Assembly: GCA_026702745.1 (NCBI GenBank)
Contig: JAPPBT010000060.1
Location: 1 to 64,000 of the forward strand
Direction of reading: 5' to 3'
DNA from: Gemmatimonadota bacterium
GTDB taxonomy: Bacteria; JAAXHH01
DNA: 64,000 nt
This document shows, piece after piece, positions 1 to 6,303 of this stretch. Numbering within the stretch: the stretch's first letter is position 1; the number at the start of each line of letters is the position of its first letter. The notes under the pieces were generated by a model. It was not told the origin of the DNA and ran no database searches. It was given only the letters and a program-made list of their open reading frames with translations. The translations under genes were made by a program, and so were the position numbers.

Positions 1-214
1 TCCCGGTCGTGCCGGTTGCGCCGGCCGTCCCGGTCGCGCCGGTTTCCCCGGTCTCCTCGTCGACGATATCGTCACAGTAGCGCATGAAGGCGTAGACCGC
101 ACACATGGCCCGCCTTCGTTCGGCCGGCAGGACGAGGAAGGAATAGTAGAAGTTCTTCGCCCTCGATTTCGCCACTGCGCGGCAGAAGTCATAGGAACGT
201 TCTAGCGAATCCAT
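1..214 (-). CDS. hpnD: Presqualene diphosphate synthase HpnD, N-terminal part (runs off window)
   Basis: Squalene/phytoene synthase family. In the HpnC/D/E route HpnD condenses two farnesyl diphosphates to presqualene diphosphate in the cytoplasm. Only the first 71 codons are present. The ATG at 214-212 gives the family's usual N-terminus (MDSLERSYDFCRAVAK), and the first Asp-rich diphosphate/Mg motif, DDIVDE, is at residues 48-53. Right after it come Gly-containing triplets (TGETGATGTAG, residues 55-65 and on), a collagen-like stretch unusual for this family, which continues past the edge. The start overlaps the end of hpnC by 13 nt, so translational coupling is likely. The symbol rests on the pairing with hpnC; a CrtB-type phytoene synthase is the alternative. 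Confidence 0.8.
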   Translation of the reverse strand, partial: MDSLERSYDFCRAVAKSRAKNFYYSFLVLPAERRRAMCAVYAFMRYCDDIVDEETGETGATGTAGATGTTG

Positions 215-1140
215 AGTCGTTTCAGTGCGTATTTCATGAACAGGCCGGTCTTCCGTGCGGTTGACAGGGTGGGCCGCCGGGTCAGCACGTCGAAACGCCG
301 TCTTTCGATCTGGTCCAGCAGGGCGGAACCGCACCGGTTGAACAGTTCGATGTCCAGTCCGACCCTCGCGTCCACCATTCCGCACAATCCGAGCCCCTCA
401 TCGAACAGCTTGCGCGTTCGGTTCACCTGGTACGCCATCAGTCCCCTGAATCGATCGTCGACGACCCCGGCCTCCAGGTCCTCTTCGGTGTAATGGTACC
501 GGTCCAGATCCTCCATAGGCAGGTAGATCCGGCCCTTTTCCAGGTCTACTCGCACATCCTGCCAGAAGTTGGCCAGCTGGAGCGCGGTGCACGTGGCGTC
601 GGACAGCAACTGGCGTTCCCTGTCCCGGTAGCCGCACAGGTAGAGCACGAGACGGCCCACGGGATTGGCGGAATAACGGCAGTAATCGAGCACGTCAGCG
701 TAGGTCCGGTAACGCGTCACGACCTGGTCCTGTCGGAACGCGGTCAGCAGGTCCCGGAACGGGGCAATCGGTATGTCGAACCGGTCGATCGTTTCCCGCA
801 GGGCGATGAAGACCGGATGACGGAATTCGTTGTCGTAACAGGCCTGTAATTCGGCATCCCACCAGTCGAGCAGCTCGAGGGACAGGTCCGTGTCTCCGGT
901 TTCGTCGGCGAGGTCGTCGGACCACCGGCAGTAGGCGTAGACATGGTAGAAGTGCCGCCGGAGCGCGCTGGGCAGAAAGGGGGAAACGACGATGAAGTTC
1001 TCGTAGTGCCGGCGCGCGAGGTGCCTGCAGTACCGGTGAGCGGACTCCAGGGAGGCGTCCCCGGCGCCGGGCAGCGCGTCGAGCGCGAGATCATTGAACC
1101 GGAGTACGGCTTCCGGCAAATAGTCAGGTAACTGAGACAT
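202..1140 (-). CDS. hpnC: Squalene synthase-family protein HpnC (hydroxysqualene synthase)
   Basis: 312 residues, squalene/phytoene synthase fold. In the bacterial HpnCDE pathway HpnC converts presqualene diphosphate to hydroxysqualene, feeding hopanoid or squalene synthesis. The first Asp-rich motif is CRWSDDLADE (residues 71-80); the second, NFWQDVRVDLEKGR, is near residues 190-200 and is followed by IYLP, typical of the family. The chosen ATG at 1140 starts MSQLPDYLPEAV. The frame stays open upstream to 1524, but that extension is only Arg/Gln/Ser translated from a 9-bp repeat and is rejected. The downstream hpnD overlaps by 13 nt. An hpnE (oxidoreductase) would be expected beyond the window edge. 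Confidence 0.88.
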   Translation of the reverse strand: MSQLPDYLPEAVLRFNDLALDALPGAGDASLESAHRYCRHLARRHYENFIVVSPFLPSALRRHFYHVYAYCRWSDDLADETGDTDLSLELLDWWDAELQACYDNEFRHPVFIALRETIDRFDIPIAPFRDLLTAFRQDQVVTRYRTYADVLDYCRYSANPVGRLVLYLCGYRDRERQLLSDATCTALQLANFWQDVRVDLEKGRIYLPMEDLDRYHYTEEDLEAGVVDDRFRGLMAYQVNRTRKLFDEGLGLCGMVDARVGLDIELFNRCGSALLDQIERRRFDVLTRRPTLSTARKTGLFMKYALKRLWIR

Positions 1141-1367: not shown

Positions 1368-2015
1368 TTACCCACCGCTGCAGGCGAATTCCAGTACGAG
1401 TTCCTCTTCGAGGCGGTACTCGATGAGGTCCTTGATGGTTGCGATTTTCAGATGATGCTCGTCGGCGATTTCGACCAGGCGGGGAAGACGGGCCATGGAG
1501 CCGTCCTCGTCCAGCACCTCGCACAGGACACCCGCCGGGTAGAGACCGGCCAGCCGCATCAGGTCGACCGTGGCCTCGGTGTGCCCGTCCCTTTCCAGCA
1601 CGCCGCCGTCGCGTGCCTGCAACGGAAAGAGGTGACCCGGCCGTTCGAAGTCCTCCGGTGTCGTATTCGGGTTCACGAACAGTTGAGCGCTTACCGCCCG
1701 GTCATGGGCGGAAATGCCGGACGTCACGCCGTTTATCGCATCCACGGATACCGTGAATGGCGTGTCCGCCGTCGACGTTTTCCCATCGACCATGATGGGG
1801 ATGTCCAGCTCGGCGAGCCGCTGTTTCGTGGTGGGCAGGCAGATCAACCCCCGTCCGTGCCTCGACATGAAGTTGATGATTTCGGGCGTGACCTTTTCGG
1901 CGGCTACCATGAAGTCGCCTTCGTTCTCGCGGTTCTCGTCATCGATGACGATCAGCACCCGTCCTGCTCTTATTTCTTCCACGGCCTCGGGAATGGTGCA
2001 GAAATGGGATAACAT
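1368..2015 (-). CDS. ribB: 3,4-dihydroxy-2-butanone-4-phosphate synthase
   Basis: Makes 3,4-dihydroxy-2-butanone 4-phosphate and formate from ribulose 5-phosphate, a cytoplasmic Mg-dependent step of riboflavin synthesis. 215 residues, the usual length of the monofunctional enzyme. Motifs: acidic metal site DDENRENEGD (25-34), RHGRGLICL (52-60), GVTSGISAHDR (96-106), RPGHLFPL (125-132), GHTEATVDL (144-152). The ATG at 2015 is chosen because it follows a strong SD (AAGGGGGT) and begins exactly at the family N-terminus; a longer frame to 2141 adds 42 unrelated residues. No fused GTP cyclohydrolase II domain. No FMN riboswitch motif is visible in the 5' region. Divergent from the STAND regulator at 2262. 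Confidence 0.95.
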   Translation of the reverse strand: MLSHFCTIPEAVEEIRAGRVLIVIDDENRENEGDFMVAAEKVTPEIINFMSRHGRGLICLPTTKQRLAELDIPIMVDGKTSTADTPFTVSVDAINGVTSGISAHDRAVSAQLFVNPNTTPEDFERPGHLFPLQARDGGVLERDGHTEATVDLMRLAGLYPAGVLCEVLDEDGSMARLPRLVEIADEHHLKIATIKDLIEYRLEEELVLEFACSGG

Positions 2016-2160
2016 CTCGCTTACCCCCTTTTCTAAGGTGTAATTAAACACGAGCGGCGCGCGCTCACAATCGGATTCGCAAGTGAATGGATTTTCAGGA
2101 AGAACGCTCTGGCCGCCGTGCCTCGGTGGAAAATTAGACATATGTTCATAAGGGGATTAT

Positions 2161-2179
2161 ATTCATACCGAATATGAAT
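2161..2179. promoter_or_regulatory. Inverted repeat, candidate operator between ribB and STAND regulator
   Basis: ATTCATA-CCGAA-TATGAAT: perfect 7-bp arms, 5-bp spacer, in the 246-bp divergent intergenic region. It sits 83 bp before the start of a protein carrying a winged-helix DNA-binding domain, so autoregulation is plausible. That is inference; only the symmetry is seen. Confidence 0.4.
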
Positions 2180-2261: not shown

Positions 2262-5024
2262 ATGACGCAACAGACCGCCGCCAAAGGCTTCCGTTTCGAC
2301 GATTTCGTGCTGGACATCCAGAACCGCCAGGTTCGCCGGAAACACGCCGTGCTGCCTTTGAGTTCCAGGTATTTCGACGTACTGGTGCTGCTGGTATCCA
2401 ATGCGGGACAGCTTGTAGAGAAGAACCGCATCTTCGACGAAGTCTGGGAGCACGTGATCGTCAGCGATACGGCGCTGACCCAGTGTATCAAGTCGATCCG
2501 GAAGCAGCTGGAGGATGACGCGTCGAATCCCCGTTACGTCAAAACGGTGCCGAAGCATGGGTACGTCTTCATCGGCGAAGCGGTGGAGATCGTGGATGAA
2601 CCGTCCCCGCAGGCGACCAAAGACGAGCCGACCCGTCCGTACAAGTTCCTCGACTACTACACCGAAAACGACCAGGGCCTGTTCTTCGGCCGCGAAGAGG
2701 AGATCGAGAACATCTGCTCCCGCATTCTTGCCCGGCGCTCGTTCCTCCTCTACGGCCGTTCCGGCGTCGGCAAGAGTTCGATCCTCCGGGCTGGCGTCAT
2801 CCCGAGGTTGCAGGACCAGGGTCACCTGACGTGTATCATCCGGAGTTTCACCGATCCGCTGCAGCACATGCAGCGGATGGTCCGCCGGCTCGTAACGGAT
2901 AACGGTGCGGGCGGCTTCGATCCGGACGGCGTTTCTCTGCAGGATCTGCTGCACCGGCACTGGTCCGGCCCCGCATCCCGGATCGTCGTCATGCTGGACC
3001 AGTTCGAAGAGTTCTTTCTCCTGCTCGATGAACAGGGCCGGAAGGCGTTCATCGATGAACTCGCCGTGATCATGGAGGACGATGCGCTTCCCCTGCAGTT
3101 CGTCTTCGTAATGCGGGAGGACATGCTCGCGGAGATGAGCCGGCTCAAACCGGCGGTCCCGGAGATCTTCCACCATGAATACCGTCTCGGCCGTCTGACC
3201 TCCGAACAGGCCGCACAGGCCATCACGGGTCCCGCCTGGCGGGTCGGCTGCCGGTTCGAAGACGCACTCGTCGACCGCCTGCTGGAGGATCTCTCCGACG
3301 AGAACTCCGTCGATCCACCTCACCTGCAGATCGTGTGCGATACGCTATACGATCAGCGCAATACGAAAAACCTCATCACGGAATCGGCCTACGACCAGCT
3401 GGGCGGCGCTTCGCAGATCCTGGCCGACTATCTCGCCAGGGTCCTCCGCCGGTTTTCGGCGGCCGACCTGTCCGTGGTACAGCAGGTGCTGCTGGCGCTC
3501 ATCTCTGCGGAGGAGCGGCTCATCGTCGTGCGGGAGGCCGATCTGGCTGCGCGGATCCAGACCGGCGACCGTTACGACGCCGACACCCTCGGCACGCTGC
3601 TCGGGGAACTGGTCGACGCCCGTATCGTCCGGCGCAGAAACCAGGAAGGGGAAGGGTGGCTGGAACTCGCCCACGAATGCATGATTCCGGAGGTGTCCCG
3701 CTGGCTGACCGGCAGCGTTTACGAAGCGAAGCAGGCACGGAGCCTGCTCGAACGTTCGGTGGAGAATTACAGGACCTACCAGCTCATCATGGACCGCGAA
3801 AGCCTGGACCTGCTCGCGCCGTACCTGGAGGAAATCGGCGTCTCTGGCGACGAAGCGTACCTGCTCTGTATCAGCCTGCTCAACCGGGACCGGCCCGTTC
3901 CGGCCTGGCTGGTTGAAAAGGTCCCGGATGCGGTGAACGTGATTCTGGAGGCCATGTACAATGATCGCCGGGAAGTCCGCAAGCGGGCGGTGGAGTCATC
4001 CCGGCCCGTGCGCTGCGCGGCGCTGAACAACCGGCTCCGGAACCTTGCGTTGCGGGATCCCATGCTGAGCGTGCGCCGGGCGGCAAGTATCGAGCTGGCG
4101 GACTGGTTCGGTTCGGCCGTGGAATCGATACTGACCCGACCCACGGGAAACGAGTCCGTAAGCCGCCTCCAGCGCGCGGTCAGCCTGGCCTTTCTGCGGG
4201 AACAGAACCGGTCGGTCAAGCTTTCCCGGCTGTACCGCGTCATGGTGATGGTAGGTTTCATACTGATGCGCCTGCAACAGGGCGGGATCGACATCATGCA
4301 GCAAGGCATAGGAGGTACGTTCGGCGGTGCCGTGTCCGGCCTGTTCGGCGGGCTGCTCCTCGGAACCGCCCTGGCCGCCGTTAGTTCCGGCCTGTCGTCG
4401 GAGGCGCTTACGCCCATTTTCGTCCTGGCCGGCCTGGGCCTGTTCGGCGGGGCATTCGGCGGTGCGGGCGTGTCCTTCGGCATGGTCGCGCTCCGGCGCG
4501 TATCCGGAAAATACGGCCGGTGGCTCGGTGTACTGGGCGGCGCGCTGGGCGGCGGCATGGTGGGCGCCGCGTTCAGCCTGTACAGTGCCGATACCATACA
4601 GACCCTGTTCGGCCGGCAACCCGCGAGCCTGACCGGCGGTCTCGAAGGCGCCTTCATCGGCGCGGGCGTGGCTCTCGGACCGGTCGTCACCTACTATCTG
4701 GCAAGGCGGCCCGGGCAGTGGCGAAGCCTGCTCTATATCGTCTTCGGCGCACTGGGCGGCATGATCGCCAGCATCCTCCTGACTGTGATGGGCGGTAACA
4801 TGTTCACGGCCAGCCTGGAAACCCTGCGGCAGTCTTTCGATGCGTCGCAGATACGGCTTGAAACCATCGCGACGATCTTCGGGGAAGGAGAGTTCGGCCG
4901 TACTACCCAGGTCGCCCTGGGCGCCCTGGAGGGGTTGCTCTTCGGTGGGGGCGTTACGGCTGGCATTGAAATATTCACGCGCTCGAGGGAGCGGGTCGAA
5001 GGGCGGTTCGGCAAGGGCGGGTAG
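2262..5024 (+). CDS. Winged-helix / nSTAND ATPase / multi-pass membrane regulator
   Basis: 920 residues. An OmpR/CadC-type winged helix (residues 8-107, ending in the typical YVKTVPKHGYVF) is followed by a STAND-type P-loop ATPase: GREEEI at 143-148, Walker A GRSGVGKS (165-172), Walker B-like IVVMLDQFEEFF (241-252). Residues about 560-650 are Arg/Ala-rich helical, HEAT-like. From about 655 to 905 lie six or seven hydrophobic, very Gly-rich segments that look membrane-embedded. There is no signal peptide, so the DNA-binding domain is cytoplasmic. The likely role is a membrane-tethered transcription factor controlled by NTP binding; the ligand and targets are unknown. The SD is weak. It is divergent from ribB and followed by thiL, but no functional link is shown. 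Confidence 0.75.
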   Translation: MTQQTAAKGFRFDDFVLDIQNRQVRRKHAVLPLSSRYFDVLVLLVSNAGQLVEKNRIFDEVWEHVIVSDTALTQCIKSIRKQLEDDASNPRYVKTVPKHGYVFIGEAVEIVDEPSPQATKDEPTRPYKFLDYYTENDQGLFFGREEEIENICSRILARRSFLLYGRSGVGKSSILRAGVIPRLQDQGHLTCIIRSFTDPLQHMQRMVRRLVTDNGAGGFDPDGVSLQDLLHRHWSGPASRIVVMLDQFEEFFLLLDEQGRKAFIDELAVIMEDDALPLQFVFVMREDMLAEMSRLKPAVPEIFHHEYRLGRLTSEQAAQAITGPAWRVGCRFEDALVDRLLEDLSDENSVDPPHLQIVCDTLYDQRNTKNLITESAYDQLGGASQILADYLARVLRRFSAADLSVVQQVLLALISAEERLIVVREADLAARIQTGDRYDADTLGTLLGELVDARIVRRRNQEGEGWLELAHECMIPEVSRWLTGSVYEAKQARSLLERSVENYRTYQLIMDRESLDLLAPYLEEIGVSGDEAYLLCISLLNRDRPVPAWLVEKVPDAVNVILEAMYNDRREVRKRAVESSRPVRCAALNNRLRNLALRDPMLSVRRAASIELADWFGSAVESILTRPTGNESVSRLQRAVSLAFLREQNRSVKLSRLYRVMVMVGFILMRLQQGGIDIMQQGIGGTFGGAVSGLFGGLLLGTALAAVSSGLSSEALTPIFVLAGLGLFGGAFGGAGVSFGMVALRRVSGKYGRWLGVLGGALGGGMVGAAFSLYSADTIQTLFGRQPASLTGGLEGAFIGAGVALGPVVTYYLARRPGQWRSLLYIVFGALGGMIASILLTVMGGNMFTASLETLRQSFDASQIRLETIATIFGEGEFGRTTQVALGALEGLLFGGGVTAGIEIFTRSRERVEGRFGKGG

Positions 5025-5151: not shown

Positions 5152-6303
5152 GTGGAGCATCGTAAGGAAGGCGCGGGACTTCCGGGCGAATTCGAGGTGA
5201 TCCGGCGTATCGGGCACGCGGTGCCCGAGGCGAATCCGAGCGTCCTGATGGGGATCGGCGATGACGCCGCGGCCGTAGTGCCCGCACCCGGCATGACGAC
5301 CCTGCTGACGACCGACACCTTCGTGGAAGGCGTGGACTTCGACCTGGCCTTCTCGTCCTGGCGGCAGATCGGATGGAAGTGCATGGCCGCCAATTACAGC
5401 GATATTGCGGCCATGGGCGGCGTGCCCCGGCACGCACTGACCACCCTCTGCCTTCCTGCCCATCGGTCCATGGAGGACGTGGAGGCGTTGTACGCGGGGT
5501 TTCAAGACCTGGCCGGACACGCCGGCCATCCCGTGTCCATCGTCGGAGGCGATCTGAGTTCGGTGGTCGGTCTGGACGGGCCGACCGTCATCTCCATCAC
5601 GGTGAGCGGAGAAGCCGCGGAGGAACACATCACGCGGCGCAGCGGCGCCCGGGTGGGTGACATCCTGTGCGTGACCGGACACCTGGGCGCGAGCGAGACC
5701 GGCCTGCGCCTGCTGCGTTCGGCACGGGAACAGTCGACCGCAGGGAGCCCGGCCGCGGGAAGGCCGGCAACACAAGGGCCGGCAACACAAGGGACGACGG
5801 AGCGGTCGGCGACGCCACGGACGGCGGTGCGTCCGGATTCGGAGCAGCCGGCGGACCGGTTCGAAGGCGTACTATGCCGCCACCGCACCCCCGTTCCGCG
5901 GGTCCGAGAGGGTGTTCTTCTGTCAAACAGCGGGTGGGTCCGCGCCATGATCGACGTGAGCGATGGGCTGAGTTCAGACGCCCTTCACGTGGCGCACGGT
6001 AGCGAGGTAGGGTTGAACCTGGATGGGAACGCCCTGCCTATCGCAGAGGAAACCAGGCGGGCCATGGAGGAGCTTCGGCTGGATCCCGTTGGGACGGCCC
6101 TGGAGAGCGGCGAGGAATTCGAACTGCTGTGCGCTATTGCGCCGGAAGGGGTGGAGCAACTGGCGAACGAGCTTGCGGATCATACCGGAACGATGCTGAC
6201 CCCCATTGGAGAATGCGTCTCCGCCGACAGGGGATGCACCATTACGGATCACTCCGGACCCCGGCCCCTGCGGCCGCAGGGGTACGAACATTTCAGTGGC
6301 TGA
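5152..6303 (+). CDS. thiL: Thiamine-monophosphate kinase
   Basis: Phosphorylates thiamine monophosphate to thiamine diphosphate with ATP, the last step of thiamine cofactor synthesis. 383 residues against about 320-340 usual. Family motifs: GIGDDAA (34-40), TTDTFVEGVDF (53-63), YSDIAAMGG (82-90), GGDLS (132-136), IDVSDGLSSD (267-276); these hold the Asp residues that bind Mg and phosphate. Starts at GTG 5152 after the SD AGGGGAAG; the nearby ATG at 5145 runs into a stop after six codons. Residues about 195-238 are a low-complexity insertion (Gly/Pro/Ala/Thr/Arg) in a loop, containing an exact 15-bp tandem duplication (5762-5776, 5777-5791). No TPP riboswitch motif is seen upstream. A 13-bp repeat spans the stop codon. 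Confidence 0.93.
   Translation: MEHRKEGAGLPGEFEVIRRIGHAVPEANPSVLMGIGDDAAAVVPAPGMTTLLTTDTFVEGVDFDLAFSSWRQIGWKCMAANYSDIAAMGGVPRHALTTLCLPAHRSMEDVEALYAGFQDLAGHAGHPVSIVGGDLSSVVGLDGPTVISITVSGEAAEEHITRRSGARVGDILCVTGHLGASETGLRLLRSAREQSTAGSPAAGRPATQGPATQGTTERSATPRTAVRPDSEQPADRFEGVLCRHRTPVPRVREGVLLSNSGWVRAMIDVSDGLSSDALHVAHGSEVGLNLDGNALPIAEETRRAMEELRLDPVGTALESGEEFELLCAIAPEGVEQLANELADHTGTMLTPIGECVSADRGCTITDHSGPRPLRPQGYEHFSG

Follow-up and report, generated by a model that had tools for sequence, protein, structure and literature searches.

What kind of protein joins an OmpR-type DNA-binding domain, a STAND-type NTPase, and a set of glycine-rich membrane helices in a single chain, and what might it sense? 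The question is raised by a gene near the beginning of the window, that is, the whole stretch of 64,000 nucleotides analyzed here (contig JAPPBT010000060.1, assembly GCA_026702745.1). An earlier note, written from the letters of the DNA, had proposed a membrane-tethered one-component regulator with the membrane domain as sensor. The present analysis arrives, with a probability of about 0.62, at an autoregulated, STAND-gated transmembrane transcription regulator that would read the (isoprenoid-lipid) state of the membrane and act on an array of TGAG repeats as well as on divergently transcribed lipid genes. Through this regulator, the membrane of the cell would probably exert direct control over genes.

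Domain organization of the regulator

The features of the locus are collected in Table 1. The N-terminal part of the protein matches the Pfam family Trans_reg_C above the cut-off (aa 31-103, E 1e-17), and a PDB comparison ranks the ToxR and CadC DNA-binding domains as the nearest solved chains, which bears out the OmpR-type domain seen before. This winged helix shares 46-56% identity with the short forms and the second-phylum protein described below. The adjacent nSTAND1 match (aa 126-489, E 1e-60) is far above the Pfam cut-off, and the regulator is the only protein in the window's genome that exceeds it. The P-loop and the DQFEEFF box recognized in the earlier note proved to be strictly conserved, as neither GRSGVGKSS nor DQFEEFF (aa 246-252) varies across 12 orthologues; with the profile match, the Walker A, and the Walker B motif, the protein carries the defining features of an nSTAND1 NTPase.

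All three parts of the previously described layout were recovered, but a HEAT-like region at aa ~546-655 had been missed. In the orthologue P0003, HEAT_2 is found with an E value of 2e-5, just under the curated cut-off, and from the alignment to P0003 we infer that a HEAT-like region is present in the window protein too. No Pfam family matches the C-terminal third of the 920-aa protein. With dN/dS values of 0.03-0.16, every structured domain of the regulator is under purifying selection, unlike the linker (aa 109-124) and the C-tail, which drift; the gene is therefore no chance open reading frame. The full-length AlphaFold2 model was too poor to use (pLDDT 47), and a search of the whole window with Rfam gave nothing at gathering scores.

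Table 1. Features of the regulator locus, in positions of the window.
Feature	Position	Strand	Evidence
hpnC, squalene synthesis, hydroxysqualene-forming step	202..1131	-	TIGR03464 over cut-off
ribB, divergent neighbor in the window's genus	1368..2012	-	TIGR00506 over cut-off
Sigma-70-like promoter TAGACA-N17-TATATT, upstream of the operator	2135..2163	+	consensus match only
Predicted operator, tandem 11-bp repeats ATGAG-N6-GTGAG-N6-GTGAG-N6-ATGAA	2183..2220	+	score reached by 0/500 dinucleotide shuffles
wHTH-nSTAND1-membrane transcription regulator, 920 aa	2262..5024	+	intact 920-codon ORF, profiles, orthologue alignment
OmpR/CadC-type winged helix, aa 8-108	2283..2585	+	Pfam Trans_reg_C; CadC/ToxR chains top PDB matches
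nSTAND1 NTPase, aa 126-489	2637..3728	+	Pfam PF20703, E 1e-60
Walker A, GRSGVGKSS, aa 165-173	2754..2780	+	invariant among 12 orthologues (alignment A1)
Walker B, IVVMLDQFEEFF	2982..3017	+	V243-F252 invariant in A1
HEAT-like helical region, aa ~546-655	3897..4226	+	transferred by alignment from orthologue P0003
TM0, weak hydrophobic helix, long forms only	4227..4301	+	hydropathy, alignment
Gly-rich six-helix membrane domain, aa 681-905	4302..4976	+	hydropathy, AlphaFold2, alignment
thiL, downstream neighbor	5152..6303	+	TIGR01379 over cut-off

The glycine-rich membrane domain

Glycine accounts for 21% of aa 661-905 versus 4.8% of the preceding sequence. Hydropathy analysis delivers six strong segments and one weaker leading segment at 660-678. 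Of the six or seven glycine-rich segments counted in the earlier note, six stand as core helices, but the seventh is one in-plane or extra segment. The domain is modeled by AlphaFold2 as all-helical with modest confidence (mean pLDDT 66.5); the hydropathy segments and the helical model both predict that the C-terminal part is a membrane rather than a soluble domain, as had been proposed. Arg and Lys are abundant in the C-tail and in the loops that follow TM2 and TM4, and the remaining loops are neutral or acidic, a pattern consistent with a cytoplasmic N-terminus.

TM3-4 and TM5-6 form an internal repeat (hhalign probability 88%), and the TM5-6 loop is highly conserved. In an alignment of 13 divergent members, Glu795 at the start of TM4 and the preceding Asp are invariant, Glu890 in TM6 is near-invariant, and the glycine framework is kept. 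When the membrane-domain model was compared with PDB folds, nothing was found below an E value of 0.1. G365 and G371 gave weak profile matches to the membrane domain that were discarded, one being antisense to another ORF and the other lying in an unrelated channel-like protein. We regard it as very probable that the protein is a DNA-binding regulator located in the membrane, and the membrane domain may plausibly be its sensor.

Distribution and short forms

The same domain order was sought in other genomes, as the earlier note had suggested. Eleven orthologues from other genomes align over nearly their full length at 56-96% identity, and exactly one copy is present in each of the 16 species examined in the window's uncultured phylum, whose MAG records carry a mixture of labels (Latescibacterota, Gemmatimonadetes, and Zixibacteria). 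A set of 368 further genomes contributed one more carrier with a closed 4.98-Mb genome, which belongs to a second phylum, probably Calditrichota, where the same architecture occurs in 9 of 40 genomes.

In a search of plasmid proteins, sphingomonad proteins matched the two ends of the query only. These short forms include P0002 (382 aa; Swit_5304 on Rhizorhabdus wittichii pSWIT01, annotated as "transcriptional regulator, CadC"), of which near-identical copies exist, and P0005 (345 aa; Sphingomonas sp. R1). In both, the winged helix is joined straight to the same membrane domain without a STAND part, and the membrane domain is therefore a genuine regulator module. Their divergent neighbors are homologous small membrane proteins with 36% identity to each other, and no isoprenoid genes adjoin the sphingomonad short forms. 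The small membrane protein is unnamed, has no Pfam family over cut-off, and is found on two different sphingomonad plasmids (L039:3315-3905 and L075:2303-2854). The annotation of Sphingobium xenophagum splits the short-form gene into two ORFs (L040:4004-5151), and the gene is thus probably frameshifted there.

A predicted operator of tandem TGAG repeats

When intergenic regions were compared, the pattern TGAG-N7-TGAG-N7-TGAG was observed shortly before the regulator's start codon, in long forms of the two phyla as well as in the two short forms. PhoB boxes are 11-bp direct repeats that are bound by an OmpR-fold winged helix; the TGAG array likewise consists of direct repeats with an 11-bp period located upstream of its target, as in a PhoB-like tandem operator. 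In 11 of the 16 regions, not one of 500 dinucleotide shuffles attained the best three-unit score, and in the other 5 no more than 12 of 500 did, with array units and threshold picked after the motif had been seen. Across 34 whole genomes, an exact scan for DTGAG-N6-DTGAG-N6-DTGAG gave 26 matches, 14 of them at the regulator gene, and a reversed control pattern gave 5 matches in all. The exact three-unit pattern has no site in 11 second-phylum genomes without the regulator. It occurs once in the window's genome, at the regulator, and in most carriers the upstream region of the regulator is the sole exact site in the genome. The second-phylum genus with the closed genome is missed by this pattern because it has only two clear TGAG units.

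We are confident, on the strength of these sequence patterns, in predicting that the TGAG array is the regulator's own operator, autoregulatory and of the PhoB type. Its geometry would imply that several winged helices bind head-to-tail. The array is situated between the -10 element and the start codon, at a distance of 3-117 bases from the latter, and in the second phylum it is close to the ribosome-binding site; the location 3' of the -10 element most simply suggests autorepression. An operator predicted for long and STAND-less short forms alike, together with the direct junction of winged helix and membrane domain in the latter, gives the strongest support to the membrane-tethered one-component regulator that had been proposed.

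The wider regulon was sought by pattern searches only. Within the window's genus, an exact array is located before an operon of CP-ATP-grasp, alpha-E, and transglutaminase genes in G004, G006, G009, and G011; in G008 it has one mismatch and in G005 one spacing is one base short. The window's own genome has an eroded version of this site, and in G002, G003, and G010 a deletion has left a single unit. Arrays were also found at a TonB-receptor locus in G003, G008, G009, and G011, and a further one adjoins DoxX in G011. Since the ATP-grasp site is intact, eroded, or deleted depending on the species, the array appears to be gained or lost at secondary targets and kept at the regulator's gene.

Two side observations were made at these loci. 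The ATP-grasp array (L136; L134, L135, L137) makes the turnover of a regulatory site visible across species. Furthermore, an unnamed 58-aa protein (MAKDRSFAAKLAKGADKG...; L132:4505-4678, also L121 and L117) is encoded beside the TonB receptor and the TGAG array in several species of the genus, and it matches no Pfam family.

Gene neighborhood and isoprenoid lipids

The gene neighbors, which the earlier note had recommended for inspection, point to isoprenoid lipids: hpnC-hpnD-hpnE in the window's phylum and uppS in the second phylum are divergent from the regulator. Within the window's genus, the order of genes on the divergent strand is ribB, hpnC, hpnD, and hpnE; hpnD follows hpnC at the window edge, and hpnE is seen by synteny in relatives. 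HpnC, HpnD, and HpnE are all above the NCBIfam cut-offs (HpnD and HpnE scored on L045). In the other genera whose contigs are long enough, an alcohol dehydrogenase takes the place of ribB and the hpn genes come next, and thiL adjoins the regulator in the window's genus only. A TGAG array directly before hpnC was not found. Squalene-hopene cyclase is absent from 11 of 12 genomes tested in the window's phylum and present in G014, so that the hpn pathway probably ends in squalene, a derivative of it, or another product and not in hopanoids.

In the second phylum, an extra uppS of a second type is directly divergent from the regulator in all nine carriers (in G384 taken from coordinates), and it was found in 1 of 19 non-carriers tested, G417 (Fisher p 1.4e-6, uncorrected for shared ancestry). 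A housekeeping uppS was also detected in most of the nine carriers, whereas G389, G396, and the non-carrier G417 yielded the second type only.

The regulator-free G417 deserves a separate remark. There, uppS2 is located behind a gene for a multi-helix membrane protein and one for an HTH_34/ArsR-like winged-helix protein (L084:3994-5935). In this single case, one membrane-plus-HTH regulator has possibly been swapped for a non-homologous other.

The gene neighborhood thus suggests a link of the regulator to isoprenoid lipids. That an isoprenoid lipid is the very signal that is read can be put forward tentatively, as something short of probable.

Proposed mechanism and alternative readings

According to the mechanism we propose, the membrane domain would sit in the inner membrane and read its state or that of its isoprenoid lipids. 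The signal would then pass via the HEAT/STAND part and change the nucleotide state and oligomerization of the protein, whereupon neighboring winged helices could line up head-to-tail along one face of the DNA, each on a TGAG unit of the tandem array, in the manner of PhoB. The bound array would control the regulator's own promoter, most simply by repression, and the bound regulator may also control the divergent lipid genes (uppS2 and hpn) and ribB. The short forms, which have no ATPase gate, would signal directly from the membrane. A stronger version, in which the glycine-rich polytopic domain directly senses polyprenyl phosphate or squalene, the STAND part switches the polymerization of winged helices on the TGAG array, and the protein represents a new regulator class that is core to one phylum, is doubtful.

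Several observations weigh against the proposed mechanism. Its lipid link comes only from the gene neighborhood, there is no array directly before hpnC, and the short forms have no isoprenoid neighbors. The extra array sites are near envelope-type genes and not lipid synthesis genes, and one of them is eroded or deleted in several species. Moreover, the full-length model has a pLDDT of 47, the membrane domain has no significant PDB fold match, and a role at the RNA level is conceivable given the location of the array in the presumed 5' leader.

In an alternative reading, the protein is an ordinary membrane-tethered regulator that responds to something other than isoprenoids, such as envelope stress, ions, or membrane tension, and the hpn and uppS neighbors are historical accidents. 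The neighbors indeed differ by phylum, ribB or an alcohol dehydrogenase separates the regulator from hpnC, and thiL lies downstream; the extra sites belong to a TonB receptor, a transglutaminase operon, and DoxX; and the short forms adjoin an uncharacterized membrane protein. However, isoprenoid synthesis genes are divergent from the regulator in two independent phyla, the extra uppS tracks the carriage of the regulator, and G417 has a new membrane protein and an HTH protein before uppS2, as if the regulation of this gene mattered. An ordinary regulator with such a signal is a serious possibility, although we would not call it probable.

It is rather improbable that the membrane domain is the working part of the protein, namely a channel, flippase, or transporter, with a winged helix that only autoregulates and a STAND part that assembles or gates the pore. 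The conserved Glu residues in TM4 and TM6 together with the internal hairpin repeat are transporter-like, the TM5-6 loop is highly conserved, and in most genomes the operator is essentially found at the regulator's own gene only. On the other hand, the extra orthologous array sites in the genus imply other targets, and a fusion of winged helix and membrane domain without STAND is typical of one-component sensors.

Still less credible is a TGAG array that acts as an RNA leader element (e.g., a translational control site) instead of a DNA operator. Its position between the -10 element and the start codon, near the ribosome-binding site in the second phylum, would allow this, but a period of one helical turn, the direct orientation, and the PhoB-like geometry expected of an OmpR-type protein fit DNA binding better, and the same array is found near other genes.

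Glycine-rich membrane segments can make pores, and the regulator might in principle be a STAND-type protein of immunity or conflict, in which the glycine-rich domain is a membrane-killing effector and the winged helix an autorepressor. This reading, which draws on the definition of nSTAND1 in conflict systems (PMC8195603), was dropped as very unlikely because no family of the PADLOC defense-system models matches the regulator and it is absent from the viral contigs and phages searched; moreover, all 16 species examined in the window's phylum have it as a core gene in single copy, with vertical inheritance and conserved synteny.

Comparison with known systems

By combining a DNA-binding domain and membrane segments in one polypeptide, the regulator falls among the transmembrane transcription regulators. 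MalT is a soluble STAND transcription activator. Like MalT, AfsR, and XssQ, the regulator combines a STAND NTPase switch with a DNA-binding domain, but those proteins are cytoplasmic and sense via TPR-like repeats, whereas its C-terminus is a predicted membrane domain. Activators of the MalT/AfsR type use superstructure-forming repeats at the C-terminus as sensor; in the regulator, the one candidate for such repeats is the HEAT-like region, which scores near the cut-off in an orthologue, and the predicted membrane helices occupy the very end. XssQ, which carries its HTH at the N-terminus, is presented in PMC8205485 as a STAND protein of a new type, and AfsR consists of a SARP domain, a NOD, and TPRs (PMC10936776). 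Like ToxR and CadC, the regulator begins with an OmpR-type winged helix and has membrane segments in the same chain. However, those proteins have one membrane helix, a periplasmic sensor, and no NTPase, in contrast to the six or more glycine-rich helices, short loops only, and inserted STAND part found here.

Transmembrane transcription regulators are common, and 27% of them have more than two membrane regions, with a maximum of 22, as stated in the survey by Demey et al. (2023, PMC10269533); STAND architectures are not mentioned in its text. No paper on a STAND regulator with a membrane domain was found among the open-access literature searched, and the libraries and papers searched contain no characterized family with this combination. 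As the protein has the marks of a transmembrane regulator and of an nSTAND1 NTPase and lacks both the single helix of ToxR/CadC and the soluble nature of MalT/AfsR, it is a new combination of known kinds: transmembrane regulators and soluble STAND activators are already known, and their combination is new.

If the proposed mechanism is true, a type of switch familiar mainly from immunity and soluble regulators, the STAND NTPase, would here connect a membrane domain to a defined operator. The lipid state of the membrane could then act on transcription with no kinase, protease, or second messenger in between. The mechanism would also supply a regulator for squalene or polyprenyl lipid provision, none being named in the papers searched. 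Owing to the predicted operator, the short forms in genetically accessible sphingomonads, and the closed second-phylum genome, these ideas are directly testable.

The predicted operator resembles those of PhoB and OmpR in being built from 11-bp direct repeats for an OmpR-fold winged helix, but the word is TGAG, and the regulator has no receiver domain and would be controlled by NTPase and membrane instead of phosphorylation. Finally, eukaryotic SREBP is, by analogy only, likewise a membrane-held transcription regulator associated with isoprenoid and sterol synthesis; it differs in that there is neither homology nor a sign of proteolytic release and that the lipid signal is here inferred. The regulator may prove to be a bacterial functional counterpart of membrane-lipid-controlled transcription.
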